IMG/VR virus record: IMGVR_UViG_3300044961_000497
Span: 1 to 36,717 of that record
Length of the DNA: 36,717 bases
Origin: a virus
Reading direction: 5' to 3' (one strand)
Part shown: one piece after another, positions 3,958 to 34,446 of the stretch
Numbering within the stretch: the stretch's first letter is position 1
Layout of the letters: each line of letters starts with the position of its first letter
The notes under the pieces: generated by a model
The model's database searches: none
What the model saw: the letters and a program-made list of their open reading frames with translations, nothing else
Told to the model about the DNA's origin: nothing
Made by a program: the position numbers and the translations under genes

Positions 3958-4080
3958 ACCCCTACCGTGGGAAATTGAAGACCACTACCGTGGGAAATTG
4001 ACGCTCGTCGAAGCCACCCCTACCGTGGGAAAATGAAGACCCCTACCGTGGGAAAATGAAGACCCCTACCGTGGGAAATC
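3958..4080. repeat. Iteron cluster B, five copies
   Basis: Five copies of CCCCTACCGTGGGAAATTGA or close variants. Cores start at 3962, 3985, 4020, 4043 and 4066, so the spacing is 23 bp except for one 35-bp gap. The cluster ends about 20 bases upstream of the -35 box of the replication operon. It is a candidate operator or replication origin, with the same core as cluster A but GTGGG instead of AAGGG. Confidence 0.85.
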
Positions 4081-17851: not shown

Positions 17852-18691
17852 TTAATCACACGGCGGCCTCCCTCGCCGAATTAGAAACTCTCGCACGATT
17901 GCGTCCAACTGTGCCATTTGAGTCGGCGTCATCGAACCGATGCCAATGAGCGAGAACACTTGTGTAGCGTTAACTCCGAACGCTACAGCGCCACTTTCTA
18001 TGCGATACGCTCCGAAAACAATATTGACCGAGTTTGCTCCAACCGAACGCGAGCCGGTTTGTGTCGCGCCATCTTGCGCCCCATTCCGGAATAGCCGCAG
18101 ATCAGTTGATGACGCACTCGAAAACGCCAGCCGCGCAACTGCCGTGGCAGCCGCTGCGCCAGGTACAGCATTCGCTGTGGAATTATTTCGGCGTCCGACC
18201 GCATTTCCAACACCAGATGTATTATTCCGCTCCAGCGCCACAAGATTTGTATTGCCCGTGAACGCTCCTCCAAAAAGGAACCGCGGTTGCAAGACAGGAC
18301 CGGAGTAATACGCACCAAAACCGAAGCAAGTGATTGGAACATCAGATAACCCCAACTGGGAGTCCAAGTATTTTCCATTACTCCCATTCTGCACCAGCCC
18401 ATCAGCGTCGCTGTAGTCGCCAGAGACATACCCGACATTGGTCGCATTGCCGACCGCACCCGCTCGATTGAACGCTGGCACCACGATGCCGTTGATGCCA
18501 CCGTCGAACGTATGTGCGTACAAATTCGCCGGGTTCAGCCCCATCGTGTTTACCAACGAGCTGAACAGGTAGTTGTATGCCCGATACGCCGAAACTGGCA
18601 GCGACCCACCCACCGCTGCGACACGGGCAGCGTAGTCGAGGGTGAGGGGGTGATTTGAGCTACCGCCAAATATGACAGGGAAGAATTGCAT
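17852..18691 (-). CDS. Tail-fibre-like protein with LamG-like C-terminus
   Basis: A 279-residue protein rich in Gly, Ala, Asn and Ser. The C-terminal third (STDLRLFRNGAQDG, SVNIVFGAYRIESGAVAFGV, FSLIGIGSMTPTQMAQLDAIVREFL) follows the pattern of LamG/concanavalin-like domains common in phage adhesins, in which a jelly-roll is followed by a 'Lt..q...l..iv..f' helix. It could bind host surface glycans or decorate the capsid. Position after the head-tail connector genes leaves either open. Confidence 0.7.
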   Translation of the reverse strand: MQFFPVIFGGSSNHPLTLDYAARVAAVGGSLPVSAYRAYNYLFSSLVNTMGLNPANLYAHTFDGGINGIVVPAFNRAGAVGNATNVGYVSGDYSDADGLVQNGSNGKYLDSQLGLSDVPITCFGFGAYYSGPVLQPRFLFGGAFTGNTNLVALERNNTSGVGNAVGRRNNSTANAVPGAAAATAVARLAFSSASSTDLRLFRNGAQDGATQTGSRSVGANSVNIVFGAYRIESGAVAFGVNATQVFSLIGIGSMTPTQMAQLDAIVREFLIRRGRPPCD

Positions 18692-18694
18692 CGG

Positions 18695-19204
18695 TCAGGA
18701 GGCGAACCGGAAGCCTTCGAGAATCCAAGTAAACTGCTCGGCACTTGCGGGAGCATATGCACCGCGCACCTCGATCAGTCCGTAGAGGTCAACTCCATCA
18801 GGGATCGTAAGCACGACCGGCGTGCCTGTCGCAGCAGTCCCACGTCCTGCGGCACCGTTCGAAAACGCGCGATCGACTGTCACGTCGAACGCTGCGACAT
18901 ACCCGTCGATCGGGGCAGTCCAGACCGCTCCATCGCCTGCGCCTGGTACGGGAGACTGTGTGAAGAGATGCACTCGAAACGATGCTCCCGTGGTGCCTGT
19001 GCCGCTCTTGCGAACACGGACCGCCTCGATGCGGACCGCACCACCAGTAGAGCAATTTGCGAATCGCAGCGGTACAACACTGCTCGCCACAGTCGAGTTC
19101 GCTAAAGCCTGCCCTGATGCGTAGGTCGTTGTGTTCGTGGGGCGGGTGAAACTGGCTTGCGCCGTGAAACCGAAACCGGAAGAAGTGGAAGGACGTGTGC
19201 TCAT
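18695..19204 (-). CDS. Virion-associated beta-rich protein
   Basis: A 169-residue beta-rich protein with few charged residues, many Thr/Ser/Gly/Ala and a regular strand pattern (VRIEAVRVRKSGTGTTGASFRVHLFTQSP, GYVAAFDVTVDRAF, TPVVLTIPDGVDLYGLIEVRGAY). Such proteins are recurrent unnamed neighbours of head or tail genes. It is a structural or decoration protein by inference. It ends 3 bases before the LamG-like gene. Confidence 0.72.
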   Translation of the reverse strand: MSTRPSTSSGFGFTAQASFTRPTNTTTYASGQALANSTVASSVVPLRFANCSTGGAVRIEAVRVRKSGTGTTGASFRVHLFTQSPVPGAGDGAVWTAPIDGYVAAFDVTVDRAFSNGAAGRGTAATGTPVVLTIPDGVDLYGLIEVRGAYAPASAEQFTWILEGFRFAS

Positions 19205-20577: not shown

Positions 20578-21771
20578 TCAGGAAGCCGGACCGGCCTTGA
20601 GGAATGCGATGGCCTCGCCATTGACGACACGACCGTCGGTGCGGATGGTGAACCTCCAAGCCTTCTTGCCTTGGTCGGCGTACCGCTCGCCCATGTAGAA
20701 CACCTCCATGCCGAGGCGGTCTTGGATGCGATAGGCCGCGCGGATGTCTCCATAAGCGATGAAGCGGCTGGAGACTGCTGGAGCCGGAGCGTAGTCGGAC
20801 ACATACACCGGCGAACCGAGCAGCAGGTTCGGCTGGGAAGCCGTCAGACCGGGCTGCCAGATGTACTGGTTGTCGTGTGCCTTCAGCTTGCGGATGGTGC
20901 GCTCAACACTGTCGCGCATGATGAATCCGGCGCGGGGGCGATAAGTGCGCTTGAGAGCATGCTGCAAGTCGATGAGGTCGTCAGCCGTGAACACCGGATT
21001 GGGTGACGGAGCCGTGGTATGCTCAGCAGGAGCGATGCCCGCGTCACCACCGACCTTCACCACGTTGAACAGCCCGAGAGGCTTGTTCACGCCGTTGCCG
21101 ACGTAGTAGGACTCGTTGGTCCCCTCTTCGATGGCACGGGAGGCTGCGCCGACGATGAACTCGGTGATCGAAGCCGCGGAATCCGCCAGAAGCTCGTCGG
21201 ACACCGGAACGATGAATCCACCCTTGTGCGCGGTGAGCACCTCGCGGCCGAGCGACGGGGAAAGCTGCGGGTATTCGCTACCCTCGCCGAGCCAGCCGAA
21301 GGTGATCTTCGTGGTCTCAACGGGGATTTTGACGAGCGTGCGGGAAGTGCGCACGTCGGCGATCTGACGGATCGGGTCCGCGTCGGTGACCCGCTGGATG
21401 ATCTGGGTTTCCAGAGTCTCCGGCAGGAGGAAGCCACCCTTGGTGTCCGTGCCAGCGAGGAGGAGGTTGGACTTCTCACCGGTGAGGAGGTAATTCGCAT
21501 ACGCGCGAAGCACTTCGTCCGAGGGAGGAGTCGCAGCTTCCGTCTTACGGGGGTTGAAGTCGCGCTCGGAAGCGAGGCGGTTCTCCACTTCGGCGAGAGC
21601 CTGATGACGGTCGATGATCTTGCCAATCTCGGTGATTCGGCTGTTCATCTCGTCATACTTCTGCTCCTCCGAGGAGGTGAGGTCTCGCTTCGCGCGCGCG
21701 GCGGTATCGAGGATGCGGCGGGATTCGGCTACAAGCCCCGCACGCTCGTTGATGAGGTCTTGGATATGCAT
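20578..21771 (-). CDS. Major capsid protein, HK97 fold
   Basis: A 397-residue protein of the HK97 phage capsid family. The first 75 or so residues are a charged coiled coil (ERAGLVAESRRILDTAARAKRDLTSSEEQKYDEMNSRITEIGKIIDRHQ), the delta scaffolding domain removed by the protease encoded just upstream. The mature part contains AGTDTKGGFLLPETLETQIIQR, the A-domain and an extended-loop region, and the C-terminal SRFIAYGDIRAAYRIQDRLGMEVF with a final DGRVVNGEAIAFLK. It builds the icosahedral head. Leader: CTAACCCAACCCAATAAG. Confidence 0.95.
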   Translation of the reverse strand: MHIQDLINERAGLVAESRRILDTAARAKRDLTSSEEQKYDEMNSRITEIGKIIDRHQALAEVENRLASERDFNPRKTEAATPPSDEVLRAYANYLLTGEKSNLLLAGTDTKGGFLLPETLETQIIQRVTDADPIRQIADVRTSRTLVKIPVETTKITFGWLGEGSEYPQLSPSLGREVLTAHKGGFIVPVSDELLADSAASITEFIVGAASRAIEEGTNESYYVGNGVNKPLGLFNVVKVGGDAGIAPAEHTTAPSPNPVFTADDLIDLQHALKRTYRPRAGFIMRDSVERTIRKLKAHDNQYIWQPGLTASQPNLLLGSPVYVSDYAPAPAVSSRFIAYGDIRAAYRIQDRLGMEVFYMGERYADQGKKAWRFTIRTDGRVVNGEAIAFLKAGPAS

Positions 21772-21775
21772 CTGG

Positions 21776-22480
21776 TTACTTATTGGGTTGGGTTAGCTCA
21801 TTGAGCCGTTGTATCCGTTCGTGGATACTGCGGGGCGTCAACGAAACAGTGTTCTTAGCCGCTTCCGGAAGCGACTTGAAAGGGAGAAGGTTCACAACAT
21901 CAGAACGCAGATAGTTCGTCGGGACTGTGCCTTCGACGATCTCGTCGGCCAAGCCCCACTCGACCGCCTGTTCGGGACTCAGCCATGTCTCATTGGCCAT
22001 GGCTTGCGAAAGCTCCTCACGTGTCTTCTTCGCACGACTGTAGCCATTCAGGATAGCCTCCTTGATGACTTCGAGAGCCTCTGCCTCTTTGCGCATTTGA
22101 GCCGCGTTCCCCCACACCATCGAGGAGGGGTCATGAATCATCATGTTCGAGACTTTCGACATCTTGATGCGCTTGCCCGCCATGGCGATGGTGCTCGCCG
22201 CGGAAAATGCAGCCCCTTCCACCATAGTCGTCACGTTGGCATCATGCGCCCGGAGCGCATTGTAGATGGCAAACCCGTCGTAAACTGAGCCACCCGGCGA
22301 GTTGATGTGCACCGTGATGTCGCGGCCCTTCAGAGCACGAATCTCAGCGGTAAGCTCCTTCGCGCGCACACCCTCTCCGTCCCAAGTGTCGCCGATGACG
22401 TCAAAAATGTAAATGTCAACAGACGCACTTGCGACATTGCGGATGTCAAACCAGCGTTCAGCTTTGGGAAATGGTCTCAT
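21776..22480 (-). CDS. Head maturation protease, ClpP/S14 family
   Basis: A 234-residue serine protease: HINSPGGSVYDGFAIYNAL, then VEGAAFSAASTIAMAG (catalytic Ser in the GAAFSAAS segment), then MSKVSNMMIHDPSSM (catalytic His). It cleaves the delta domain of the capsid protein. The ATG at 22480 overlaps the portal gene by 23 bases. An alternative ATG at 22543 would add 21 residues of portal shadow (ending NLRPSLNLK). Confidence 0.93.
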   Translation of the reverse strand: MRPFPKAERWFDIRNVASASVDIYIFDVIGDTWDGEGVRAKELTAEIRALKGRDITVHINSPGGSVYDGFAIYNALRAHDANVTTMVEGAAFSAASTIAMAGKRIKMSKVSNMMIHDPSSMVWGNAAQMRKEAEALEVIKEAILNGYSRAKKTREELSQAMANETWLSPEQAVEWGLADEIVEGTVPTNYLRSDVVNLLPFKSLPEAAKNTVSLTPRSIHERIQRLNELTQPNK

Positions 22481-23720
22481 CTTGAGATTGAGACTTGGTC
22501 TCAGGTTGACGGACAGGTTGTATTGGTTGTCCGTTAGCGTCAAGCATTTTCAAGTTCTGACTCAATGCAAATAAATCCCCGCCGGGCACTGGGTTGCGAT
22601 TTTCGAGTTTGCGCCACTCGTCACGAGAAAGAACGCCATTCTGGAACTGCTTCTCCAAGGCAGCCGTCCGAGCCGCAATGTCCGCACGGAGAAGCCCCTC
22701 CATCTCAAACTTGAAGTGATACCCAAGCGCACGTTCACGAGGCGTCAGAAGCCTCATGTTGAGCGCCGATTCCCACCGAACCGTCCACGGAAGTAGGGTG
22801 TCCGTGATGTAGCTCTGGTTCTCCTGCTCTACATTGTTGTAGTGGGCCGCATCAGTGATGCCCGCCTTGATCTGCGGCACTCCGAACACTTGGCAAATCG
22901 CCTTGTCTTGTGCCTGCTTTGCCTCAAGGAATTGGCTGTCGCGGTTATTCACGGCAGGCAACCGGCTGACCTTCGCACCGCCATGCAAGAGCAAGAATGA
23001 ATGTGCATTGCGCAACCCCTGATGGTTCTCCTCGATCTCTTTCTTGAAAGCTTGGAACTTCTCCGGGCTAAGCGTTTGCGCAAACTCGTAAATCGCAGTC
23101 GGGTTGATCGCGTTCGGAAAGAATCGGGCTGCATAGTCCTGAAGTGCAATAGCAAGCCCAATGGGTTCCCGAGCAATCGTAGGAATATCCAGCCCGAGGA
23201 TACCATCATCAGTCAGCCCCTTCAGGTGAATAACTTGGTCTGGCTTCAGAGGAGCACCACGGAAGTTATAGATGAGTTTGCCGTCTGGTTGGCGGATGAC
23301 CTGAATGTCTTGGTTGCGCGCGGGCCACAGCTCACGCACTCGTCCGAGACCATCGCGAACGATGAGCATGTAGCCATTTCCGCGGAGAGTAGCATTGGCC
23401 TGAACAGCCCCTACGAGGTCGGCAACTGTCATCTCCTCGTTCGGTGCATAGCTGATCAGATTTGAAACCGGGTGATCCCAAATCACTTCGCTCGTGCCGT
23501 TTGCCTGCGTACGGTACAGATGGATCGGCATCGACAGCATCGACCGGCTGATCGCGTTCACGCAGGCCCAAACCGTCGAAACGCCAAGGGCGGTTTGCGC
23601 ATCCACCGTGACGCCTGAACGAGACTCCGCCCCACCGAAAAGCTCAACCAACCACGGCTCCGGCTGATCGAGACGCGCGTTCTTGAACCACTTTCGGATA
23701 CGGTTGAGCATGGGAGGCAT
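22458..23720 (-). CDS. Portal protein, HK97 family
   Basis: A 420-residue portal. Hallmarks are TALGVSTVWACVNAISRSMLSMPIHLYR near the N-terminus, PVSNLISYAPNEEMT, LRGNGYMLIVRDGLGRVRELWP, PLKPDQVIHLKGL and the C-terminal QVFGVPQIKAGITDAAHYNNVEQENQSYITDTLLPWTVRWESALN. It forms the dodecameric DNA channel. The start at 23720 (or 23711) follows the AGACTCAGTCTC element. It lies downstream of the tail genes instead of beside the large terminase. Confidence 0.94.
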   Translation of the reverse strand: MPPMLNRIRKWFKNARLDQPEPWLVELFGGAESRSGVTVDAQTALGVSTVWACVNAISRSMLSMPIHLYRTQANGTSEVIWDHPVSNLISYAPNEEMTVADLVGAVQANATLRGNGYMLIVRDGLGRVRELWPARNQDIQVIRQPDGKLIYNFRGAPLKPDQVIHLKGLTDDGILGLDIPTIAREPIGLAIALQDYAARFFPNAINPTAIYEFAQTLSPEKFQAFKKEIEENHQGLRNAHSFLLLHGGAKVSRLPAVNNRDSQFLEAKQAQDKAICQVFGVPQIKAGITDAAHYNNVEQENQSYITDTLLPWTVRWESALNMRLLTPRERALGYHFKFEMEGLLRADIAARTAALEKQFQNGVLSRDEWRKLENRNPVPGGDLFALSQNLKMLDANGQPIQPVRQPETKSQSQDETISQS

Positions 23721-23724
23721 GTTA

Positions 23725-23737
23725 AGACTCAGTCTCA
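23725..23737 (-). promoter_or_regulatory. Palindromic TGAGACTGAGTCT element before the portal gene
   Basis: On the minus strand TGAGACTGAGTCT, in which TGA is the stop codon of the glycosyltransferase gene, followed a few bases later by the portal ATG. The same 13 bases in the same stop-codon position occur at 31546-31558, before the tail tube gene. It could be an operator, RNA processing site or recombination seam. Confidence 0.5.
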
Positions 23738-24757
23738 AGAAGTCAACGGAAGAAACTCCGGCTTCCACGGACGACGCATGACGCGAAGGTGCCCTACGCA
23801 CTCCCCAACCGGCTCGTGGAACGCGACCAAGTGCTCGTATTCCACTGCTCGCTCATCCTTCTTCTTTTTCGACCAGATGACATGATCTGCCGGAGCATGG
23901 GTGATGCACGCGATGCGGATGCCAGCAGGGTACCAGCGGTACCAATTGATGTACAAATCCTCTGTGCCTTTGCCATCGTACCCTTCGAAGCGGGCAAGCT
24001 CGGTCGCACGTCGTGTCATGAGGTTGCAACCAAAGCCGCACCAATCGACCGGCACGACAGCCCCTTTCCCGATGCCGGGATAAGCAAACTCAAGCCAGCC
24101 TCTCCGCCGATATTGAATTGCATTCAGGGCGAACACATTGCCCTTCGAAGGACACTCCTCGATGGCCTTGCGCACCTTCTCCATGCGCTCCTGCATATCC
24201 GGTGTCACAACGCCAGATTTGAACTCTTCCTCAAGCTTGTCGCCTTCGGCCTTGAGTTCAGCGGGAATCTCTCGCTCTTCAGGGAACACATTCGGTAGGA
24301 TCGGCGCGTGGGGTGTCCCGAAGCCGCCCAGGTAAAGGTCGTTCGGGTAGGGTAGGAAAGCAACCTCGTAGTAGCCACTATCAAACTGCAAAGTCGGGAG
24401 CATCGTTGTCAGTGCATTGACCGGCGGCAAGACGTCCGAATCCAGCGACCAAACGTAATCTGCACCGGCATCCAAAGCGTTTTCGTGCATTGCCTGACGC
24501 ATTGCAGCAATCCGGAGTTGTGCCTGCTCCTTGTAGTTCTCGCCCGTTTCTTCGAGGTTGGGGAGCATAAGCGGACGGGCATCCAACCCAATCGCGCGCC
24601 AAGCATCGACCACACGAGAGACGGAAGCATCCCCGCACACGACAGCTTGAGGCAAAGGCAGCTTCGCGTGCCGGAAAGCCGCTGCGATGCGCTTGCCCTG
24701 CGAGAGCATAGCATACTGGTACTTCGACGTGGCCGCGACGACGACTTGGATGTTCAT
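23735..24757 (-). CDS. Glycosyltransferase, GT-A fold
   Basis: A 340-residue protein. The start MNIQVVVAATSKYQYAMLSQGKRIAAAFRHA and the YVWSLDSDVLPPVNALTTML segment (Asp-x-Asp, about residues 104-108) point to a GT-A-type nucleotide-sugar glycosyltransferase. Later acidic and aromatic motifs (VDWCGFGCNLMTRRA; GKGTEDLYINWYRWYP) resemble the acceptor-side E/D-D-L motif of family 2 enzymes. It overlaps the end of the Ser/Thr-rich virion gene by ATGA and is followed by the portal gene, so a virion protein is a likely acceptor. Modification of host glycans is the alternative. Confidence 0.85.
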   Translation of the reverse strand: MNIQVVVAATSKYQYAMLSQGKRIAAAFRHAKLPLPQAVVCGDASVSRVVDAWRAIGLDARPLMLPNLEETGENYKEQAQLRIAAMRQAMHENALDAGADYVWSLDSDVLPPVNALTTMLPTLQFDSGYYEVAFLPYPNDLYLGGFGTPHAPILPNVFPEEREIPAELKAEGDKLEEEFKSGVVTPDMQERMEKVRKAIEECPSKGNVFALNAIQYRRRGWLEFAYPGIGKGAVVPVDWCGFGCNLMTRRATELARFEGYDGKGTEDLYINWYRWYPAGIRIACITHAPADHVIWSKKKKDERAVEYEHLVAFHEPVGECVGHLRVMRRPWKPEFLPLTS

Positions 24758-26739
24758 GAGGTGATGGTGGAGTAGCTGAGCGCTTGCGGGAAGTCTACGC
24801 TACCAAAACAAACAAAAGAAGCATTTACTGCTACTGCGGCAGAGGTACCTTCAGGCACCTCGTTAGTGGTCGTGACGGTACTCCCAGAGATTCCTTGCAG
24901 TGTCATCTTCATTGGGAAAAAGGGTTGTACATGCAAAGCCGACTCTGAAGCCCCTGCTATTCCTCCGTAGCTGGAATCAAAAACCCCACTTCTAGCTGTC
25001 GATGGTACACGAGTAGTAGTTGGCAACACGTTAGAGGCGGTTTGCGTAACTGTGACCGTGCTCGTCGAACTCAAGGAAGTGCTAAGGCGGGTAACAGTGA
25101 AAGAGTTAGAACTGCTCTGTTGAATGTAGGTTCCTTGTGGCTGTGTGCCAGTCGCAACGTAGGTCGTGTTGGTCGGTAGAAACACGGAAAGCTGGTTCCC
25201 GCCACGTATCAACGTAGGCATGATCAGCGTGCCGGACGAAGTCTGAAAGTCCATAACTGACCCCGTGACGCCGTCGAATCGCCTCAGTTCATTGGTTGGA
25301 ACTGCATAAGCCGCTAAAGGTGATCCATTATCCACCAAAGAACTTCTCGCATGGAAAACCCTTACTATAGTGTGAGAAGCAAGTGAAGTTGTGTTACTAA
25401 GCTGTACCGTAGAAAGTGGCACCGTGTCAGTGGAAAGAAAACTGATTGTGCTGGCGCGTGAAGATGTCAGTGTAACCGCAGTTGATCCAATCGGCATGGT
25501 GACTGTATGCGATACTGCTAAAGTAGTGGTCCTACCCACCGGCAAAAGGTGATGAAAGACACTTGATGCAGACGTCGATGACGTGATGGTAGTCTGAGCA
25601 CCAAAAGCAGTAGAAACAGACGACAGAATTCGAGTAATATTAACTGTCTGTGGTGCTTGGCTCAATGCACGGATGACTGAAAAAGCAGGCGCACGAGTCA
25701 TGCTTGTAACATTTTGCACTGTGGCTCCAAACGTCATCGTTGTGGACGTTAGAGTAGTGAAAACCAATGCTGACACATCAGTAATGGATGTAGAGAAAGT
25801 AAACTGCTCAGGCGTCCAAGACGTGACAGTAACCAAGCCATCTGAAGAAGAGGACACGAGCAAGTTCCCCCAACCCGCGCGAGCAAGTAAAACAGTTGTT
25901 GTAGTGTCCGAAGGGTACGCCGAGCCTGCCAGTATAGCCGTCGTGTATTTCAAAGTGTAGCTCCCGCCAAATTGCGACGTGATGGAGGAGGAAGTCGATG
26001 TTGTCTGCTGGAAACTGCTTAGTGTGGAGTTCCACGAGGAGCCGGTGATGGTTTGCACCGTGGTCGCCGTGGTGGTGTTTTGCGTTGGCCTTGCCATGTG
26101 AACTGAATTAGGGACGTTTGGTCCGCCAAAATTAGTAGAGGTCGTAAACGTCGAAAACGGGACACTAGAAGAAGCAAAATAGGAAATAGCCACGAAAGTT
26201 GTTGAATTCCCTGAAACTGTGGCGTCAAACTCAGTCGTAGTGCCCCAAGTATTCGCAGAAAAAGTGGCCCACGAAACATACGATTGCGAAAAAGTATGCA
26301 AGAGTATCGAGCCGCTAAATTCACTGTAGGAAACAGACATCGTCCCAGCTACATGAGTTACCGACCAAAAAGACGTAATTGCGCTCGATGTTGAAGTGCT
26401 AACAGAAGCAAAAGAAGGGCCAGTTTGGTAGGATGAAAAAAAGCTCGCCGACACTTGTGTTGGCTCTAACCGCATAAACGATTCATAGGATTCACTGTAA
26501 GAAGAAAACCCATTGTTTCCTGAAGCGGTGTGCCATGAGTAGTTTTCAGAACGTGTTCTCTGTCGTATGCTCGAAGAAACCGATTGACTAGTCCTAGTGC
26601 CCGTACTATCCAATTCAGACCGAAAACTGAAACTCCCAAGAACATCAGTCTGATCGTGTAAAAATTCGCCTCTATCAGCCTCCCTAGTCGTCCCCGGAAG
26701 CGGCCCAGAACGTGTTGTCGATGCAAGCCAGGTCCACAT
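24754..26739 (-). CDS. Large Ser/Thr-rich virion protein
   Basis: A 661-residue protein of which, by eye, at least a third is Ser or Thr, spread along the whole chain in short beta-type repeats (TTTATTVQTITGSSWNSTLS; SSTSTVTVTQTASN). No signal peptide, membrane helix or enzyme motif is apparent. Lys is very rare. Its DNA is visibly richer in A+T than the neighbouring genes. Position after the tape measure and two tail genes suggests the tail tip or adhesion device. The adjoining glycosyltransferase makes heavy O-glycosylation plausible. The start at 26739 is 3 bases after the preceding stop. Confidence 0.82.
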   Translation of the reverse strand: MWTWLASTTRSGPLPGTTREADRGEFLHDQTDVLGSFSFRSELDSTGTRTSQSVSSSIRQRTRSENYSWHTASGNNGFSSYSESYESFMRLEPTQVSASFFSSYQTGPSFASVSTSTSSAITSFWSVTHVAGTMSVSYSEFSGSILLHTFSQSYVSWATFSANTWGTTTEFDATVSGNSTTFVAISYFASSSVPFSTFTTSTNFGGPNVPNSVHMARPTQNTTTATTVQTITGSSWNSTLSSFQQTTSTSSSITSQFGGSYTLKYTTAILAGSAYPSDTTTTVLLARAGWGNLLVSSSSDGLVTVTSWTPEQFTFSTSITDVSALVFTTLTSTTMTFGATVQNVTSMTRAPAFSVIRALSQAPQTVNITRILSSVSTAFGAQTTITSSTSASSVFHHLLPVGRTTTLAVSHTVTMPIGSTAVTLTSSRASTISFLSTDTVPLSTVQLSNTTSLASHTIVRVFHARSSLVDNGSPLAAYAVPTNELRRFDGVTGSVMDFQTSSGTLIMPTLIRGGNQLSVFLPTNTTYVATGTQPQGTYIQQSSSNSFTVTRLSTSLSSTSTVTVTQTASNVLPTTTRVPSTARSGVFDSSYGGIAGASESALHVQPFFPMKMTLQGISGSTVTTTNEVPEGTSAAVAVNASFVCFGSVDFPQALSYSTITS

Positions 26740-26742
26740 AGT

Positions 26743-27348
26743 TCAAGGTTGAGCAATGTTCCACGAGTACCAGATGTCTAGCGGGAACTCGCCCGCCAGA
26801 AGGTTTGTTTTCGACGTGCGAAACCTTTCCACAACATTCGCTTGTACGTTACGCGGCAGAAGCACTTGGCGCACCACACCCCCACCTTGATTCGTAACGA
26901 TCCCAACGAGCACGGCAAACGTCACAGGCGGGGTTCCCTGCGTCACCGCGATGGGCGCAGGCGCATCGACTTCTAAAGCAAGCGTGATCGTGCTGATGGC
27001 CCCGTTGAACGTTGTCACGTTTGCCACGACGTGCCTGACAGACGAGGGAGGCAAGGTCAGCGTGGCATCCCAATTTGTCGCAATCGAACCGTTGATCGTC
27101 CCGAGGGTGACCTTAACGTCCGAACCGGTAAGCTGAATCTGCCACGGACCATCCGGTGTCACCGTCCCGCCCCCACCAACCGGTAGCACGCGATCCCTCA
27201 CGACCTCCGCGTTCCAGCCGTTCGCCGAACGTTTGACTCGCAGAGACGGCGACGGCATCGGCTGGAGTTGCCGAATAGCATCCACAACCTGATCCGCCCA
27301 ACGTTTGATGTTAGGAGGGACGCCGGTCAGATAGGGAGGCAAGTTCAT
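26743..27348 (-). CDS. Tail-tip region protein of unknown function
   Basis: A 201-residue protein. The N-terminus PPYLTGVPPNIKRWADQVVDAIRQLQPM is a helical segment like those that join tail fibres or tail-tip proteins to the tail. The rest is beta-rich (WQIQLTGSDVKVTLGTINGSIATNWDATLTLP; TTFNGAISTITLALEVDAPAPIAVTQGTPPVTFAVLVGIV), a pattern seen in minor tail proteins. It overlaps the upstream gene by ATGA. Confidence 0.72.
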   Translation of the reverse strand: MNLPPYLTGVPPNIKRWADQVVDAIRQLQPMPSPSLRVKRSANGWNAEVVRDRVLPVGGGGTVTPDGPWQIQLTGSDVKVTLGTINGSIATNWDATLTLPPSSVRHVVANVTTFNGAISTITLALEVDAPAPIAVTQGTPPVTFAVLVGIVTNQGGGVVRQVLLPRNVQANVVERFRTSKTNLLAGEFPLDIWYSWNIAQP

Positions 27349-28136
27349 GACAAATACACGTTGCTCCGGTCAAGCAACACCTTGTCCACCCCCGTCCACT
27401 CCTCCGACCTCGTCCAACGGGACAGCCTCGACTGGCGAATCGACCGATCGGCTGATTTGATCCACTCCCAGCCAGACGGAAGTGACGGGAAGCCACCCGG
27501 CGGGTTCTCCTTGAGACCTGCTGAAGAAGTCGGCGGCGGCCCCCCAACATAGCTGCGGATACGCCGGATGACCGGCGAATAGAGAGCGAACGACTCAACA
27601 CCTTGCAAAATGAGTCTAGGTAGCTTCAGTTCATCCGAGGACCAAGTTGTAGATAAGGTGACTATCGTTCCAGTCGGGTTACCAGAAGAGTCTTTCTTGT
27701 TGTACTTCAGGTCTTTGCGAAGAGTCGGGTCTTGTTCATCCTCCCAAGCACGCAAGTCAGACCACTTTGCCTCAGTCAGATTCGCAAACAGAACATGCCG
27801 TCGAACGTCCTCCGATACTGAGACCCATTCAATCTCATAGGAGGTCTCAGCCAAAGCACCTGTAATGCCCCCACCGCCAGCGTCAAATCTCTGTTCGGCT
27901 TCTACAATGAGGCGGGCCTGCGGCACAGCCGAATGTTCGGTCATCGGCTCGTAGCGAACGTTCGTCACCTCACCGGAAAAACCTGCCCACCCAGTAGTGC
28001 CTATCGCGGGCTTGCCGGGGTCTAGAATCGACTCCGGGCCTTGGTAGGACCACGTGACTTTGCTGCCGCTCTCAGTCTCCTCAGAAACCGGAAAATTGTG
28101 CTCAAGACAATCTGCAACGGTTACTTTGATTGCCAT
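27345..28136 (-). CDS. Putative minor tail protein
   Basis: A 263-residue mixed alpha/beta protein encoded directly after the tape measure, where a distal tail or tail-tip protein is expected. Visible features are WSYQGPESILD, TNVRYEPMTEHSAVPQARLIVEAEQRFDAGGGG and a Trp/Arg-rich C-terminus. I recognise no family; the role is assigned by position only. Confidence 0.7.
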   Translation of the reverse strand: MAIKVTVADCLEHNFPVSEETESGSKVTWSYQGPESILDPGKPAIGTTGWAGFSGEVTNVRYEPMTEHSAVPQARLIVEAEQRFDAGGGGITGALAETSYEIEWVSVSEDVRRHVLFANLTEAKWSDLRAWEDEQDPTLRKDLKYNKKDSSGNPTGTIVTLSTTWSSDELKLPRLILQGVESFALYSPVIRRIRSYVGGPPPTSSAGLKENPPGGFPSLPSGWEWIKSADRSIRQSRLSRWTRSEEWTGVDKVLLDRSNVYLS

Positions 28137-28137
28137 G

Positions 28138-30060
28138 TCAGTTCCTCCAAATCTCCATCGACCGAGCGATCGAGGCTAGGTAAACTGTCTGCTTCTTTGC
28201 TTCGGTCTCCAAAACCGGCTCGGTGGACATAGCAGCTGCGGTCCCAAGGAGCAAACCCCTTCGAACCATGTCGTTGAAAGGAGTTTGCCTAGCTGCCTCC
28301 ACGCGATTGGCGTTCCCGCGCTGCTTCGCCAAGTACTGCTCGACTTCCTCGTTTGTAAGCAATCCAAGCTTCACGAGGTCGTTGAGCCTCTTCCGCTGCT
28401 GCTCCTCAGCATACAAAGGATCGAGACTGGCTTTGATCGCATCTGCCGCCGCTTGTTGTGCTTTCTGAAGCTCGTAGAGTTGAACGACAAGTTTTGCCGC
28501 TTCTGGACTGTTGCTGACGTTTTTGCCGTCTTCTTCGAGAAATCTCAGTTTATCAGTTAAACTGGCAATCTGCTCTGAAGGGGTCATCAAATCGAACGAC
28601 ATACTTGCCATTATATCTGCGGCCTCTTTCATATCACGAAGGCGCTCCTCAGAAGCACTCTTAAGCTGCTCCACAGTCTTTCTCTGTATCTCAAGCAAAG
28701 CGTTCTGCCGCTCCAACGCTCTGTTGGCTGCTGCTGTTGCGTCTGCTTCCGCTTGCTTGAATGCCGCCAGCTGCTGCGTGTTATCACGCCGGAGTCTCAA
28801 TGGCTCCTTAACCTCAAACATAGGTCGTCCTCCCCTACGAGGGTTGGACCGTGGAGAAGAAGACCAATACTCGGAGGCTTCTAACCGTCTCCCAGCTGTT
28901 ACAAGCGCATGAACCGCGCGTTGTCGCTCTGCAAGTGCAGCGGTCAGCTCACGCTCAGCAATAACCCGTTGCTCCGCAAGACTCATCTGTTCTACGTCTC
29001 GCTTGCGATTAGAGTCAGTGAGCGACACAAACTTTTCTTGCTCTTGGCGCAAAGCCTCTATTGCATCTTTAGCCTTCTTAGCGGCATCCTCCATGTTGTA
29101 GAGGCGGTAGATGAGCACTCCGAGAGATACCGCCGCACCAGCAATAGCTCCCCACCTACCAAATACGCCCAGCATCTGCGAGCCTTGCTGCGAAAATGCA
29201 ACTAGTGCGTTCGTGCCGCTCGCAACCTGAACAGCGAAGTCCTGAATCTGATAACCGGCCTGCTGCAAATACATGCCATAGCGCGAAGCCGCCCGCGACC
29301 CAGCCTCAAACTGGATCGTCTGCGCACGCATTTGCATGTAGGCCGCTGCTTGTTTGTCGGAAAGAAGCCCACGATCAACCAGCTTGGTAAGCTCTGCCCT
29401 CAACTTAACCAAACGAAGCGTCGGGTTGACCGCCTCCTTGATAGCCTCTGCCTGCTGAAAAAGAGCGCGCTCGGTGTTGCGGGCTTCTTCGGCCTTGGCC
29501 TCCTCAAGCTGCATTTGCCGCTGAAGCTGCTTTGAGAACTCCATGCCCGACCGCTGACGCTCAGCGATCTCTCGGTCGATCGAACTGAACTGCTGCTGCC
29601 AGTATTGCGAACTCAGCCTCTGCCTCTGCTCAAGGTCGGCCCTAGCGATCGCGGCGTTACGCGCCAACAAAGTTTGCTCATCACGGGCAGCCTGCGCGTT
29701 CGCTTCAGCCTGCTGCTGCTGAAACTGCATGTCCACACGCCGACCAGCCAACCCACGATTCGGGTCAACTATGCTCGCCTGCTCAACACGAGAACTGGCG
29801 GTCACGAAGGCGATCTTTGCTGATTCCTCCAGCTTCTCAAACTGGCGAATCAACTTCGCCAGCGATCCGGATGTCATCGGCACGTTGGAGGCACGCACGA
29901 AGTCCTCCATCGCCCGACGGTAATGCCCCTGCATTTTCGACAACGCAACCTCGTTGTCTCGGAGCGCCGTCGCCAACGAGTCGGCCAGCTTCTCAGCGCC
30001 TCGGGTGAATCCCGAAGCATCCAGATTCGCTCTCGCACTAAAATCGGCAACGATTTGCAT
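28138..30060 (-). CDS. Tail tape measure protein
   Basis: A 640-residue protein, mostly long coiled-coil helices rich in Ala, Gln, Glu and Arg, with one hydrophobic segment near residues 300-320 (WGAIAGAAVSLGVLIYRL). The N-terminus ADFSARANLDASGFTRGAEKLADSLATAL is typical of tape measures, as is its place after the gp10-like and chaperone genes. Its length would correspond to a tail of very roughly 90-100 nm at about 0.15 nm per residue. Its start overlaps the preceding stop codon (TGATG). Confidence 0.85.
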   Translation of the reverse strand: MQIVADFSARANLDASGFTRGAEKLADSLATALRDNEVALSKMQGHYRRAMEDFVRASNVPMTSGSLAKLIRQFEKLEESAKIAFVTASSRVEQASIVDPNRGLAGRRVDMQFQQQQAEANAQAARDEQTLLARNAAIARADLEQRQRLSSQYWQQQFSSIDREIAERQRSGMEFSKQLQRQMQLEEAKAEEARNTERALFQQAEAIKEAVNPTLRLVKLRAELTKLVDRGLLSDKQAAAYMQMRAQTIQFEAGSRAASRYGMYLQQAGYQIQDFAVQVASGTNALVAFSQQGSQMLGVFGRWGAIAGAAVSLGVLIYRLYNMEDAAKKAKDAIEALRQEQEKFVSLTDSNRKRDVEQMSLAEQRVIAERELTAALAERQRAVHALVTAGRRLEASEYWSSSPRSNPRRGGRPMFEVKEPLRLRRDNTQQLAAFKQAEADATAAANRALERQNALLEIQRKTVEQLKSASEERLRDMKEAADIMASMSFDLMTPSEQIASLTDKLRFLEEDGKNVSNSPEAAKLVVQLYELQKAQQAAADAIKASLDPLYAEEQQRKRLNDLVKLGLLTNEEVEQYLAKQRGNANRVEAARQTPFNDMVRRGLLLGTAAAMSTEPVLETEAKKQTVYLASIARSMEIWRN

Positions 30061-30575
30061 CAGAGGTTCTTCAGGTCTTCGAAGGCTTTGGTTGCGGCCT
30101 CACCGACGGCATCGGCGAGAGTTTTCTGCATATGCGGCACTTCTTGCTCGAAAGCAGGCTTCAGGAACGGACGAGGCGGAATACGCTTGCCGCTCTTTGC
30201 ATGTATGAACCCGTACTCCACGAGGTGTGCGTAGTTCGCCGGTTTGCGCTTACCAGCATTGCGCTCCAGATACTCTTCCTTCGTCTCCCCTGGCTCCTTC
30301 TTTATCCGCACACCACTCTCGTAGTAGTCCGTCCGAGGTCCAACAAGCCCCAAATAGTGCTCCCCTTGGCGGTACACACGAACGACATTCGTCATAGACG
30401 CACGAAGCGCGCCTGTGTCGATCGAATCATTCTGCTCCAGCTTGCGTTGCGCCTGCGGCACCACCGGACTTGTCGCCTCCTTCATGCCCCTCGCCAGCAC
30501 CTGCTTCTGTGCCGCGAGGTTGAGCATCCGGAGTTTTCGCTCCAGCTTGTGCAGAGGCTTTAAGTCGATTTTCAT
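30060..30575 (-). CDS. HK97 gp10-like tail completion protein
   Basis: A 171-residue protein with the gp10 family layout: basic N-terminal helix, PVVPQAQRKLEQNDSIDTGALRASM, a beta core, YAHLVEYGFIHAKSGKRIPPRPFLKPAFEQEV and a final helix. It acts at the head-tail joint. It usually sits between the adaptor and tail terminator; here it follows the chaperone genes. Its first 149 bases also encode, in another frame, the C-terminus of the GT fusion protein. Confidence 0.87.
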   Translation of the reverse strand: MKIDLKPLHKLERKLRMLNLAAQKQVLARGMKEATSPVVPQAQRKLEQNDSIDTGALRASMTNVVRVYRQGEHYLGLVGPRTDYYESGVRIKKEPGETKEEYLERNAGKRKPANYAHLVEYGFIHAKSGKRIPPRPFLKPAFEQEVPHMQKTLADAVGEAATKAFEDLKNL

Positions 30576-31112
30576 GTGCCTTGCGTAACCCCTCGATGTA
30601 GTTTTTGCGTGCAGCTATCGGCTGGACGTCGTCTGGGTCAGGTGGGAGGAAGTCGGACGGTTTGCATTTGACACCTTGAGAGTTGTAGATGGCACAGACG
30701 AGTTCAGCGTGTCTCTGGTCCAACCTCCGTTCCTTCCGCTTCCAAGCATCAATGAGAGCAGAGACTCGGTCATGTGGAAGGAAGTCGTACTCGGCATCGC
30801 TCAGCCCCAGCTCAAGACGGGCAAACGCCCAATCCCGAAGCTGGGGGCTTAGGCGTTTTTTTGTGGCATGATGGCCACAAGAGCTTCGTCGTATTTTGAA
30901 AGGTCGGACAGGTCCAACTGGTCAGCCAAGTGCTCCCAAGTCGGGAACGGGTTGGGTTTCTCGGCCACCGCGCACCAAAGAAGCACCGCGAGCGCTTGCG
31001 CTCCTCCGGCGGTGCGCACCGGCTCAGGAAGCCCCGAGAACCGGATGCGCGCCAACGATCCCCACACGAGGGCGACGTCCTTGTCACCGATCCGAACAGT
31101 GGCTGTGCTCAT
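30427..31112 (-). CDS. Tail assembly chaperone GT, made by -1 frameshift
   Basis: The G frame (31112 to 30849) has, just before its stop, the slippery heptamer A-AAA-AAC (30861-30855) in the correct phase. Slipping back one base continues without a stop codon to 30427, giving a 228-residue fusion. The T part begins RLSPQLRDWAFARLELGLSD and includes YDFLPHDRVSALIDAWKRKERRLDQRHAELVCAIYNSQG, with VKCKPSDFLP as the typical tail-chaperone end. The final 50 residues are Gly/Ala-rich and overlap the gp10-like gene. By analogy with lambda gpG/gpGT, the fusion binds the tape measure and recruits tube subunits. The frameshift itself is inferred. Confidence 0.88.
30849..31112 (-). CDS. Tail assembly chaperone G
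   Basis: An 87-residue product, MSTATVRIGDKDVALVWGSLARIRFSGL through DLSDLSKYDEALVAIMPQKNA, encoded just after the tube gene as in lambda-like tail modules. It is the unshifted product of the frameshift pair; most ribosomes would stop at 30849. The start overlaps the tube gene stop (ATGA). Confidence 0.87.
   Translation of the reverse strand: MSTATVRIGDKDVALVWGSLARIRFSGLPEPVRTAGGAQALAVLLWCAVAEKPNPFPTWEHLADQLDLSDLSKYDEALVAIMPQKNA
30855..30861 (-). promoter_or_regulatory. Programmed -1 frameshift site
   Basis: AAAAAAC within CAAAAAAAC, phased as X-XXY-YYZ relative to the G frame, three codons from the G stop. A GC-rich stretch downstream (GCCCCCAGCTTCGGG) could provide a stimulatory structure. 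Confidence 0.85.
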
Positions 31113-31534
31113 GGGACGAAGGTCGGCGCACCGGTGCCAGAGAACGTGACCGTAGCCACCAACTCGGAGTCGAGTCCAGCGTTAACAGTCAGATTGGTCA
31201 CCCAGCCCTGCGACCAAAGCACTGCCGTTCCCGCGTCGGGGAACCTCAAGCCGAAGGTCATCTTCGTCTTGGCCAGCCAGTTGGTCTGAATCGTGGCCAT
31301 GTTGGTGTCGGCGGGGTCCCAAATGAACTCGGCGTCAACGGACATCGGTTCTCCTAGTCCGGGCAGGAACTCCCGAAAATCATCGGCGAGCACCGAAACG
31401 TCGATCAAACCAATCTCAGCACCTTTGAACGATCCATCGCGAAGCAGCGCGACGACAGTATTGGGTGCCACGACCGGCGGGGTAGCGGAACCGATGAGCA
31501 ATTCGGTTCCTTTAGCTGTGTAACGAGTAGGCAT
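31109..31534 (-). CDS. Major tail tube protein
   Basis: A 141-residue beta-rich protein. The order MPTRYTAKGTELLIGS, APNTVVALLRDGSFKGAEIGLIDVSVLADDFREFLPGLGEPMSVDAEFIWDP and the C-terminal strands match lambda gpV/HK97 gp13-type tube subunits. It lies between the tail terminator and the chaperone, the canonical place. It is preceded by the TGAGACTGAGTCT element. Confidence 0.87.
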   Translation of the reverse strand: MPTRYTAKGTELLIGSATPPVVAPNTVVALLRDGSFKGAEIGLIDVSVLADDFREFLPGLGEPMSVDAEFIWDPADTNMATIQTNWLAKTKMTFGLRFPDAGTAVLWSQGWVTNLTVNAGLDSELVATVTFSGTGAPTFVP

Positions 31535-31545
31535 AGATGAAAGCG

Positions 31546-31558
31546 AGACTCAGTCTCA
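31546..31558 (-). promoter_or_regulatory. Palindromic TGAGACTGAGTCT element before the tail tube gene
   Basis: Contains the TGA stop codon of the tail terminator gene, and with one more base it forms the palindrome GAGACT-G-AGTCTC. It ends 11 bases before the tube start. It matches the element at 23725-23737 before the portal gene. Confidence 0.5.
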
Positions 31559-31957
31559 GTTCGAGGGTGTGGTTGATTGATACCAAGCAGAAAGACGCAA
31601 AATGACCCCCTGAAGGTCAGGGAAGTCTTCTCGCGTATTCTCTTGGGAACGGCAAATGTATTTGCACGGATTCGGACTTGACTCAAGAACAAAACGAATC
31701 CTGTCGGCAATCGTCCAGGCATCGAACAACGTCCGAGCGTAGACAACCACCTGCAACTCGAAGTTGTCGTTGCGTGCCGACGATGGTGTACCGTTCTCCA
31801 TAATTGGCGCCAAGTTCGACGAGATGATGTCCATGAACACGGATGGACTTTGCACCCGCTCTCCATTCGTGCCAAAGTTTATCCTGTCGGCTGGCACAAG
31901 CGAGATAAGCTGTGCGTCAGCAACCAAGCGGTTGTGCGTGTAGGCTGGAAAACTCAT
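31556..31957 (-). CDS. Tail terminator (DUF3168-like)
   Basis: A 133-residue protein with the family pattern: an N-terminal helix (HNRLVADAQLISLVPADRINFG), PSVFMDIISSNLAPIMENG, the FELQVVVYARTLFDAWTIADRIRFVLES segment (strand, then helix) and a C-terminal beta part. It caps the tail tube and contacts the head adaptor. It overlaps the adaptor gene by ATGA. Confidence 0.85.
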   Translation of the reverse strand: MSFPAYTHNRLVADAQLISLVPADRINFGTNGERVQSPSVFMDIISSNLAPIMENGTPSSARNDNFELQVVVYARTLFDAWTIADRIRFVLESSPNPCKYICRSQENTREDFPDLQGVILRLSAWYQSTTPSN

Positions 31958-32286
31958 TGCCCGAACCTTTCTGCTGCTTGCACACTGGTAAACTGCCTGC
32001 GCCCGACTTCTTTAACGGCCACGATGTCCCACAACCGGGTGCCCTCCTGAATACGCCAAGACGTATTGATGTCAGGATAGTACCGGAACAGGAATACTGC
32101 CGTCGTCTCCTGCCTGATCTGCCCGGCGAGGCGCGTTTCTCGCCCACCGGATTCGTCCTTACGACACCAACGAGTTGAATCGACCGTCCACGTCACGCTC
32201 AACCCACCCATAGCATCCTTGGCATTGACGGGGCGCAATAGGTCCACGCGACGATCGAATTGTGGTGCAGTAGCTGGCACAATCAA
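31954..32286 (-). CDS. Head-tail adaptor (SPP1 gp16/phage head-tail joining family)
   Basis: A 110-residue protein: FDRRVDLLRPVNAKDAMGGLSVTWTVDSTRWCRKDES, QETTAVFLFRYYPDINTSWRIQEGTRLWDIVAVKEVGRRQ. This is the standard head-closure pattern (R-v-l-l.p......g......W). It joins the connector ring to the tail terminator. Its presence here, apart from portal and connector, shows that the head-closure parts are split across the operon. Confidence 0.9.
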   Translation of the reverse strand: MIVPATAPQFDRRVDLLRPVNAKDAMGGLSVTWTVDSTRWCRKDESGGRETRLAGQIRQETTAVFLFRYYPDINTSWRIQEGTRLWDIVAVKEVGRRQFTSVQAAERFGQ

Positions 32287-32302
32287 ATGGGTAACAAAGA
32301 TG

Positions 32303-32725
32303 TCACCTCAAGTCAAGAAAGGTGATCGGGGCGTCCTTCCGAACGTAAATTTTGTCTCTCTTCTCCAACCCAAGGCAACACGTGAGAACCGTCGAGGCTT
32401 GGGATTTATGACACCCGAGCATCTCGCGGAACTGCCTCGGTGTGATGTGATCGCCGGGCTTCATGGCCTCCAAAATAGGCAGTGCCGCACGTTGCCACTT
32501 GGAGAGCCGAGGACTCTTAACCTGCGTCTCCCGAGATTCATTGCGAGGTTGGGGTATGCGGGTTTCCGCGATTGCCCTGCGCATCTCCTCCCTCTGTTTG
32601 AGAAGCCGCATCTGACGGGCCTCGTAATTCATGAACATCCTCTCAATATTGCGCATCGTAGTGGAGTTCATGCCTGCCTCCCTCCCAACGAACGGATTGA
32701 TCGACGTCTGACGTTGACAACTCAT
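32303..32725 (-). CDS. Winged-helix protein between terminase and adaptor
   Basis: A 140-residue basic protein. After a charged helical N-terminus (RNIERMFMNYEARQMRLLKQREEMRRAIAETR), residues about 85-140 resemble a winged helix: WQRAALPILEAMKPGDHITPRQFREMLGCHKSQASTVLTCCLGLEKRDKIYVR. It is joined to the large terminase by ATGA. A later start at 32671 is possible. It might regulate late transcription or take part in packaging, but no family is recognised. A DNA-binding gene at this point in a head-tail operon is unusual. Confidence 0.75.
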   Translation of the reverse strand: MSCQRQTSINPFVGREAGMNSTTMRNIERMFMNYEARQMRLLKQREEMRRAIAETRIPQPRNESRETQVKSPRLSKWQRAALPILEAMKPGDHITPRQFREMLGCHKSQASTVLTCCLGLEKRDKIYVRKDAPITFLDLR

Positions 32726-34446
32726 GACTTTTTGTTGGTTCCTCCGAAACTGATAAAATCCACGTCGATGGGTGCATGCAACATCTTTCGCCCGAGGGCC
32801 ATGATTAGCGCGACCACACCGTCGATCTTTGCATCCCCGCGCTCCTTCGATGGGTAGTAGTACTTCACTGTGCCCTGCGACTGTTTGCGCACCACGTTCG
32901 ACATCATCCAATTAAGCACCGGGTCGTTCTGGTGCACGATTCGCCCCTCTTCGATGAGCGCTTCAAGCTCCTTCATCGGCTCGGACATGTGTGCTGGTCC
33001 CTGATTAACCTCCACGATGTCAAACCCGGCCCATGACTGCACCCGGCCCATCAGGTAGTTCATCTCCCGCGGGTCATAGGCGACACACTCGATTGCGAAC
33101 CGACGAGACCAATCTCGGAGCACCTGCTCAACGACAGCTTGGTCCGTGCGAGCGCCTTCTGTTTGCGTCAGCCAGCCCTCGTCCCGCCACTTTCGCAGAT
33201 GTGCATTCTCAGGCAACTCGATGGTCTCCTCTGGCAGAAAGTGCTTGGCGAAGCAAGCAGTTTTGTCCCCCCGCTGGAACAGCACAACCATGCTGAACAC
33301 GTCCACCTTGGCAGCAGCATCGATCCCGATCCAGCATTGTCCCCCATCGAACTGGTCCAAGGTCATCGACGGGTCGGCACAGGCAGCCCATTTCTGCATG
33401 TTCGCCCAGCCCGCCTTTGCGCCTACCCACATGTTCAAGTGCTTCGTCTTGAACACTGCCTGTTCGGACGCCTTGCGAATCGCCTGCTGCTGAAGTGGCA
33501 GGTATGCCTGTGGCAACACGGAGACGCCCCAATTCGGATTCGCTTTGACGAGCGTGCTCTCCATAGTCCAATCGTCCCCGTCGTCCGCAGAGAAAATGAT
33601 CCCGAACTTCGTGTCATCCTCGTAATCCCCAGCGAGGAGTTTTTCCACGTCGCGCCAGTCTTCCCGGCACGGGCCACGCAGATTGTCCCCAGCGGTCGAA
33701 ATGATGATGCCGAGGGCTTGCTCACGTGCGCCCGTGCCCGTCCTCATCGTGTCCAAAAGCGAGCTGTCCAAGTGCTCGTGGTACTCGTCCACGATGAAGC
33801 AATGGGGTGACGCTCCGTCACCCGGCTTGCCGATGACAGGCATGAACTTTCCACCGTCCGGCATGATCAGGGCCGACCCAAGCACTTTCATCCCCGTCGA
33901 GGTGGGTAGCTTCGGCTCAGCCAAGCACATCTGCCGCGCCATGCCGAACACTTCCCACGCCTGCCGCTCGGTCGTGGCGCCGCAATACACCTCCGCTCCC
34001 GGCTCGCCGTCCTTCGTCAGCATGAACAGCCCGATTGCCGCCGCAAATGACGATTTGCCATTCTTCCGGGGGATGTAGATGGATGCCATCTGAAACCGGC
34101 GCAAACCGGTATCCCGATGCACCCAGCCGAAAATGGAACACAAGATGAACTTCTGCCACGGCTGAAGCAGGAGGCGAGACGGCTTCTTGGTCTTGGGGTC
34201 CGATCGTGCCCACTTACCCTTCACGTGTGGCAGAAGCTCAATAAACCGCACAGGACGGCTCGCCTTGGCGGGATCGAACACGTAGGGCCACCCTGACCCT
34301 GCTGATGCCTTCTCAAGGTCGGCAAGGTGCCTTAGACAGGCTCTGCGGGCATGCTGGCACGCGGGCAGCCTCCCTTCGACCACGTCGAGGGCGTATTGGT
34401 GCGCCTCCTGCACCTGCGGGTACCCGTCAAATTGCATCGAAACCAT
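32722..34446 (-). CDS. Terminase large subunit
   Basis: A 574-residue TerL of the HK97/Terminase_1 type. The ATPase has Walker A YIPRKNGKSSFAAA (about residues 121-134) and Walker B CFIVDEYHEH (about 211-220). The nuclease domain shows IGIDAAAKVDVFSMVVLF (first acidic residue, about 370) and DPREMNYLMGRV. It cuts and pumps the genome into the head. The start at 34446 (or 34437) overlaps the small subunit gene; the longer reading frame upstream is its shadow. Confidence 0.94.
   Translation of the reverse strand: MVSMQFDGYPQVQEAHQYALDVVEGRLPACQHARRACLRHLADLEKASAGSGWPYVFDPAKASRPVRFIELLPHVKGKWARSDPKTKKPSRLLLQPWQKFILCSIFGWVHRDTGLRRFQMASIYIPRKNGKSSFAAAIGLFMLTKDGEPGAEVYCGATTERQAWEVFGMARQMCLAEPKLPTSTGMKVLGSALIMPDGGKFMPVIGKPGDGASPHCFIVDEYHEHLDSSLLDTMRTGTGAREQALGIIISTAGDNLRGPCREDWRDVEKLLAGDYEDDTKFGIIFSADDGDDWTMESTLVKANPNWGVSVLPQAYLPLQQQAIRKASEQAVFKTKHLNMWVGAKAGWANMQKWAACADPSMTLDQFDGGQCWIGIDAAAKVDVFSMVVLFQRGDKTACFAKHFLPEETIELPENAHLRKWRDEGWLTQTEGARTDQAVVEQVLRDWSRRFAIECVAYDPREMNYLMGRVQSWAGFDIVEVNQGPAHMSEPMKELEALIEEGRIVHQNDPVLNWMMSNVVRKQSQGTVKYYYPSKERGDAKIDGVVALIMALGRKMLHAPIDVDFISFGGTNKKS

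Follow-up and report, generated by a model that had tools for sequence, protein, structure and literature searches.

Does a phage genome encode an enzyme dedicated to glycosylating one of the phage's own tail proteins? The question is raised by a 36,717-base virus record (IMG/VR IMGVR_UViG_3300044961_000497; the whole of this stretch is referred to as the window), in which the gene of a 661-amino-acid (aa) protein rich in serine and threonine (Ser/Thr) overlaps that of a 340-aa enzyme by the four bases ATGA. A preliminary description of the window had read these overlapping open reading frames (ORFs) as a GT-A-type glycosyltransferase and its virion substrate, and had proposed searching for the pair in other phages. 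The overlap is as described, and the pair recurs in dozens of other uncultured phages; the gene module is real and conserved in phages. Judged from sequence comparison and structural modelling, it is probably a tail glycosylation system. In the explanation that we consider likely, it consists of a structural protein of ~200 aa, a Ser/Thr-rich tail protein of hypervariable sequence and a soluble, dedicated GT-A enzyme that would O-glycosylate this partner.

The enzyme and its Ser/Thr-rich neighbour

On its own, the 340-aa protein matched nothing in Pfam, PHROG, NCBIfam or PDB sequences, and the GT-A assignment therefore needed an alignment of homologues. A single-protein search with the window enzyme found only the close relative L002 in viral contigs, and nothing in genome contigs, phages or plasmids. 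The family was opened by a 59-residue, motif-rich fragment of the enzyme, which found 11 viral loci; a search with a 10-sequence alignment then gave 202 confirmed stretches in viral contigs, 80 of which were kept for analysis, and three loci in genome contigs. The enzyme gene is present in 93 loci, with full length in 91, and these fall into 55 clusters at 90% identity.

An AlphaFold2 model built from 56 sequences (the window enzyme plus 55 homologues) is confident (predicted local distance difference test score 92.4, predicted template modelling score 0.90). Its top Foldseek match is COLGALT1 (expectation value (E) 7.7e-10), and VIA-align places COLGALT1 (9evj_A; Z 18.8 over 238 residues at 3.6 A) ahead of the glycosyltransferase domain of LH3 (Z 17.4), with glycosyltransferase structures spanning model residues 1-332 at Z 15-19. 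Among Pfam matches at E <= 1, Glyco_tranf_2_3 is seen in 9/56 members of the family (best E 5.9e-6) and Glycos_transf_2 in 7/56 (best E 0.046). Of the 56 sequences, 40 have Glu at residue 106 and the other 16 have Asp; Asp108, Asp267, His287 and His292 are invariant. The protein is thus, on its predicted structure, a GT-A glycosyltransferase, as the preliminary description had held.

Of the residues of the 661-aa protein, 18.8% are Ser and 18.0% are Thr, 36.8% in total; Lys occurs twice and Cys once. The other main ORFs checked in the window have 6.8-21.9% Ser+Thr. The earlier claim that a third or more of its residues are Ser or Thr, with almost no Lys, agrees with these values, but the residues had also been called evenly spread. 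Ser+Thr content ranges from 22 to 45% per 50-residue segment, so the enrichment is spread along the protein, though not perfectly evenly. The longest Ser/Thr run is 7 residues, Ser/Thr autocorrelation does not exceed 0.079 at lags 1-29, and the Ser-rich tandem repeats that are a hallmark of serine-rich repeat adhesins were not found in the protein. Nor did it have a supported family match in Pfam, PHROG or NCBIfam. GC content at third codon positions is 0.46 in this gene, compared with 0.60-0.78 in the other genes compared.

Linkage and divergence across loci

A gene of at least 300 aa with at least 22% Ser+Thr is adjacent to the enzyme gene in 52/55 clusters. It lies upstream on the same strand in 47 of these and is convergent in 5, and thus the linkage survives inversion: the enzyme is inverted relative to the tail operon in L013, L045, L090, L091 and L075, yet it remains joined end to end to the Ser/Thr-rich gene. 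In two of the exceptions (L031 and L053) the neighbouring genes are partial and have 21-22% Ser+Thr; the third, L025, is taken up below. Median Ser+Thr content is 30.4% in the 50 complete partners (range 24.0-42.6%, after the 22% threshold) and 13.0% in 170 other ORFs of at least 300 aa, for which the 95th percentile is 22.9%.

The linkage was also recovered by a search that made no use of the enzyme and started from eight aligned sequences of the ~200-aa protein encoded just upstream of the Ser/Thr-rich gene. This anchor search found 43 loci, 4 of which run off the contig. All 39 loci with room carry the anchor, a Ser/Thr-rich gene (24-39%) and the enzyme in that order, where the anchor sequences were drawn from enzyme-bearing loci and some anchored loci are near-duplicates. 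By contig name, 11 of the 43 loci overlap with the enzyme set, and 28 of the 39 are new. The ~200-aa family itself is divergent, with 21-31% identity in a 12-sequence alignment outside the close relative L002. As a positional control, the proteins after the tape-measure-like protein of Pseudanabaena phage Pan4, which has no annotated glycosyltransferase, have 15-20% Ser+Thr.

An obligate linkage to a tail protein gene would be unexpected if the enzyme glycosylated the bases of the phage genome, as happens in phages whose DNA is hypermodified. Virus-encoded DNA glycosyltransferases do exist (cited in a passage of PMC12619734); we regard this explanation as very improbable.

No match was found by tblastn with the window enzyme and four relatives against 50,697 phage records, so no isolate in that phage collection was found to carry the enzyme. 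Enzyme-bearing contigs of metagenome-assembled genomes (MAGs) belong to Opitutales, Chthoniobacter and Burkholderiales, and these three contigs are a hint to the host of the window phage, without establishing it. The enzyme is found in 2/387 genomes of the phylum of the Chthoniobacter MAG, that MAG included. A distant genome of this phylum encodes, in order, a protein of 754 aa that occupies the place of the tape measure, proteins of 124 and 203 aa, a 660-aa protein with 31% Ser+Thr, and the enzyme. Directly after the enzyme is a protein of 462 aa with Ser-rich repeats and 55% Ser+Thr (L146 12174-13562; L145 2583-3971). The long Ser-rich repeat region of this 462-aa protein resembles Ser-Asp repeat proteins.

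A nucleoside diphosphate-sugar-type gene lies within 3 kb of the enzyme in 53/102 loci with distinct enzymes, a count that covers only the surroundings of the enzyme. These comprise relatives of short-chain dehydrogenase/reductase (SDR) sugar dehydratases/epimerases in 25 loci and cupin sugar epimerase/isomerase-type genes in 28, and three loci of the SDR group have a cytidylyltransferase-like relative as well. Many of these genes share a few bases with the enzyme gene. Pfam support was obtained for six examples, including GDP_Man_Dehyd in L050 (E 4.3e-42), RmlD_sub_bind in L087 (1.6e-9), CTP_transf_like in L030 (2e-12), and Polysacc_synt_C (7e-10) and FdtA (1.3e-6) in L009. The raw count of 59/102 was lowered by excluding six loci, L046, L051, L073, L082, L088 and L095. 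In the first three, a gene of 324-330 aa after the enzyme was considered as a second glycosyltransferase and rejected, as the L046 copy, which was checked, has no Pfam match; the other three have weak matches to this gene. The enzyme and cupin genes are separated by the gene of a DUF3431 protein in L009 (8261-8968; Pfam E 6.1e-13), L101 (10548-11252) and L111 (10409-11164). In the window, no sugar-nucleotide-type gene lies beside the pair.

The partner diverges far faster than its surroundings. Between the window and L002, the Ser/Thr-rich gene has a nonsynonymous divergence (dN) of 0.44 and a synonymous divergence (dS) of 1.17, which identifies the ORF as a real gene. The two proteins share 53.2% aa identity, and the L002 copy still has 36.3% Ser+Thr. 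The enzymes are 97.9% identical, the two upstream proteins 98.1% and 97.5%, the portal ORF 99.8%, and the protease and capsid 100%. Within the Ser/Thr-rich protein, residues 21-100 share 32.5% identity with L002, as against 95% for residues 1-20, and the internal block 485-582 (94.9%) is flanked by blocks at 40-47%. At the 304 aligned sites that differ, Ser/Thr occupies 90 in the window and 87 in L002, coinciding at 26 (25.8 expected by chance). Thus the sites turn over while the composition holds.

The same pattern is seen across the family. Over 190 non-independent locus pairs with enzyme identity from 0.80 to <0.995, median identity is 0.88 for the enzyme, 0.25 for the partner and 0.42 for the next gene up. 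In L037/L040 and L084/L090 the enzymes are 99% identical, with partners at 28% and 22%, and mean partner-versus-partner identity over 120 sampled pairs is 24.7%, compared with 23.4% for shuffled sequences. A constant enzyme paired with a partner whose sequence similarity is lost entirely, but whose Ser/Thr content is retained, suggests that selection acts on composition, as it does in mucins. Since the partner is altered beyond recognition, what the enzyme recognises is probably the density of Ser/Thr or some short conserved segment. Trp is found within residues 2-5 of 14/51 complete partners, compared with 4.1% in control stretches, although an N-terminal aromatic motif is only suggestive.

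The likely acceptor of the enzyme

The nearest structures suggest that the modelled enzyme leans towards protein acceptors. The lead of the top structural match, COLGALT1, over other GT-A structures is only ~2 Z units, and a profile search for sequence homology to the COLGALT/PLOD enzymes gave E 0.26 over a single 50-residue stretch. Several observations weigh against glycosylation of the partner, and the first concerns the fold, as many polysaccharide as well as peptide glycosyltransferases match the model at VIA-align Z 15-17. A fold common to polysaccharide glycosyltransferases would also suit an enzyme that modifies host surface polysaccharide or lipopolysaccharide, for receptor masking or superinfection exclusion, with the Ser/Thr-rich protein as the fibre that meets this surface and the linkage as co-selection of receptor and modifier. 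Serotype-changing phage glycosyltransferases are described in passages of PMC10955285 and PMC12619734, and the partner is hypervariable, as receptor-binding proteins are. However, the enzyme gene sits within the structural operon with a four-base overlap, its linkage to the Ser/Thr-rich gene is near-absolute even through inversions, and it stays constant while the fibre changes completely. Host modification also gives the extreme Ser/Thr content no role, and on balance we think it unlikely.

The other opposing observations concern the partner. In L025, the enzyme gene is separated from a gene with 42% Ser+Thr by another of 740 aa with 20%. Other genes in the loci, some directly after the enzyme, have 20-28% Ser+Thr, and 6/170 background ORFs reach at least 24%, so that Ser/Thr richness is a continuum. 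No relative without the enzyme, which would show whether partners are Ser/Thr-rich because they are glycosylated, was found among the loci. Ser/Thr richness could be a structural trait of an unmodified beta-rich fibre, with the enzyme glycosylating another virion protein, such as the ~200-aa protein, which is linked about as tightly as the partner; the further proteins at 20-28% would fit this too. Yet the gene next to the enzyme is almost without exception the Ser/Thr-rich one, even where the enzyme is inverted, the partners' median and top values lie well above those of other ORFs, and in the distant genome a Ser-rich repeat protein gene directly follows the enzyme. A different virion target is accordingly quite unlikely in our estimation.

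Glycosylation of the Ser/Thr-rich partner is preferred. The observations at its base are the GT-A fold, the conserved motif, the fixed linkage and a composition kept through divergence; from these we infer catalysis, the acceptor, the O-linkage, the virion location and the benefit of glycosylation. The enzyme-substrate pairing of the preliminary description is in this sense upheld by genomics, through the fold, the linkage in clusters and anchored loci and the sugar-nucleotide-type genes, and the partner would be a glycosylated component of the virion.

Genomic setting, proposed mechanism and known systems

The pair had been placed between tail and portal genes, and the annotation agrees. On the minus strand the order is terminase large subunit, head closure protein, major tail protein, tail-completion-type protein, tape measure protein, 263-aa protein and 201-aa protein, followed by the Ser/Thr-rich protein, the enzyme, portal, protease and capsid (Table 1). 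Placement after the tape measure gene supports the partner being a tail protein.

Table 1. Features of the Ser/Thr-rich protein, the enzyme and their neighbours in the window, with the basis of each assignment.
Feature	Position	Strand	Basis
661-aa Ser/Thr-rich protein, putative tail fibre or adhesin and putative substrate of glycosylation	24754..26739	-	composition, hypervariability versus L002
Ser/Thr-rich protein residues 1-20, conserved, proposed virion anchor	26680..26739	-	95% aa identity to L002
Ser/Thr-rich protein residues 485-582, conserved internal block	24994..25287	-	94.9% aa identity to L002
Predicted GT-A glycosyltransferase, 340 aa	23735..24757	-	AlphaFold2 model, structure matches, Pfam in relatives
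[D/E]xD motif of glycosyltransferase, residues 106-108	24434..24442	-	56-sequence alignment
4-base overlap ATGA of Ser/Thr-rich gene and enzyme gene	24754..24757	-	sequence
201-aa protein, divergent ~200-aa family, proposed adaptor	26743..27348	-	upstream of Ser/Thr-rich gene in relatives
263-aa tail-region protein	27345..28136	-	position; 98% identical in L002
Tail tape measure protein	28138..30060	-	PHROG 1538, E 3.2e-11
Portal protein	22458..23801	-	Pfam Phage_portal, E 2.5e-90

ORFs were picked by a greedy longest-ORF script, and gene counts are approximate. Overlap of the portal and enzyme ORFs depends on the first GTG of the portal; with the ATG at 23720 there is none. No supported family match was found for the 263-aa protein in Pfam and PHROG searches, and a Gly_transporter match of the 201-aa protein (Pfam E 0.0011) is below the cut-off and was taken as chance. 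The position of the tail genes between terminase and portal/protease/capsid (20578-34524) is an unusual order, and L007 apparently has a similar one, judged from ORF order alone. Elsewhere in the window, proteins of 279 and 169 aa are encoded downstream of the head-tail adaptor (17852-19204) with no PHROG match at E 0.01, the 169-aa protein having 21.9% Ser+Thr. A DNA polymerase I-like gene (10286-12265) has weak matches to models of the aminoadenine-incorporating DpoZ (E 3.6e-4 and 4.7e-3), far below the cut-offs. The region 3486-3959 is GC-rich with strong GC skew, has a minus-strand ORF that starts with a Gly/Asp/Arg-rich repeat, and may be a repeat array instead of a gene.

In the proposed mechanism, the tail genes would be expressed late, and the soluble enzyme would take a nucleotide sugar in the cytoplasm of the infected cell, before or during assembly. 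Its [D/E]xD motif would bind metal and the sugar donor, and sugars would be placed on many Ser/Thr hydroxyls of the neighbour protein. The modified protein would then become a fibre or sheath of the tail, attached by its conserved N-terminus, with the ~200-aa protein as a possible docking site. Roughly half of the related loci have accessory sugar-nucleotide-type genes, which would adapt the donor; the window phage would draw on host sugars. Glycosylation would probably add bulk to an exposed fibre and shield it from proteases, or else tune adhesion. Among the possible benefits named in the preliminary description (receptor avoidance, stability or immune evasion), evasion of vertebrate immunity has no support for an environmental phage. 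A further-reaching possibility, to which we give slightly less than even credence, is that of a "phage mucin": an obligate three-gene module of many uncultured environmental phages, in which an invariant enzyme would modify any adjacent Ser/Thr-dense scaffold, the scaffold would diversify at kept density, swappable sugar-nucleotide genes would change the glycan, and the glycan coat would be the conserved surface of the tail.

Phage-encoded glycosylation of capsids and tail tubes is established in mycobacteriophages (Freeman et al. 2023, as cited in passages of PMC11256854, PMC10877033 and PMC12619734). The glycans are reported at C-termini, and the enzyme genes of phage Maravista lie near the 3' end of the genome, according to these passages. 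As in those phages, a phage-encoded glycosyltransferase is here linked to a virion protein gene, the virion role of the partner being suggested by its position. Unlike the capsid and tail tube targets, one enzyme family is here locked to a large hypervariable Ser/Thr-rich tail-region protein.

Bacterial adhesin-glycosyltransferase pairs are a close analogue in logic, joining a Ser/Thr-rich or repetitive surface adhesin to a dedicated enzyme. Such enzymes act in the cytoplasm, and their genes are adjacent to the adhesin genes; those of serine-rich repeat proteins, SdgA/SdgB and the TibC-type enzymes are GT-B. In contrast, the phage enzyme is predicted to be GT-A, and it would act on a tail-region protein of the phage instead of one exported to the cell surface. 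A TibC-type GT-B catalytic domain was not found in the enzyme model, the whole of which matches GT-A structures. The bacterial systems include serine-rich repeat proteins (PMC6973325), SD-repeat proteins with SdgA/SdgB (PMC3794999) and autotransporters glycosylated by TibC-type heptosyltransferases (PMC4358343). The nearest structural matches, COLGALT1 and LH3, act on protein, but the phage enzyme shares 11-14% and 8-9% identity with them in the structural alignments and, unlike them, has a single catalytic domain. COLGALT1 and LH3 act on hydroxylysine-linked sites of collagen. No published description of the pair was found in a literature search whose scope excluded preprints and most subscription papers. 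Virion glycosylation is thus already known; this gene set, with its fixed linkage and hypervariable partner, was not found in print.

The pair offers a concrete enzyme and candidate substrate for laboratory testing. If the explanation is true, it would give a function to enzyme and tail protein families left unnamed by Pfam, PHROG and NCBIfam, and the family may be a source of protein O-glycosyltransferases with relaxed acceptor choice. A glycoprotein tail would then be a widespread, dedicated phage strategy, extending beyond a few mycobacteriophages.

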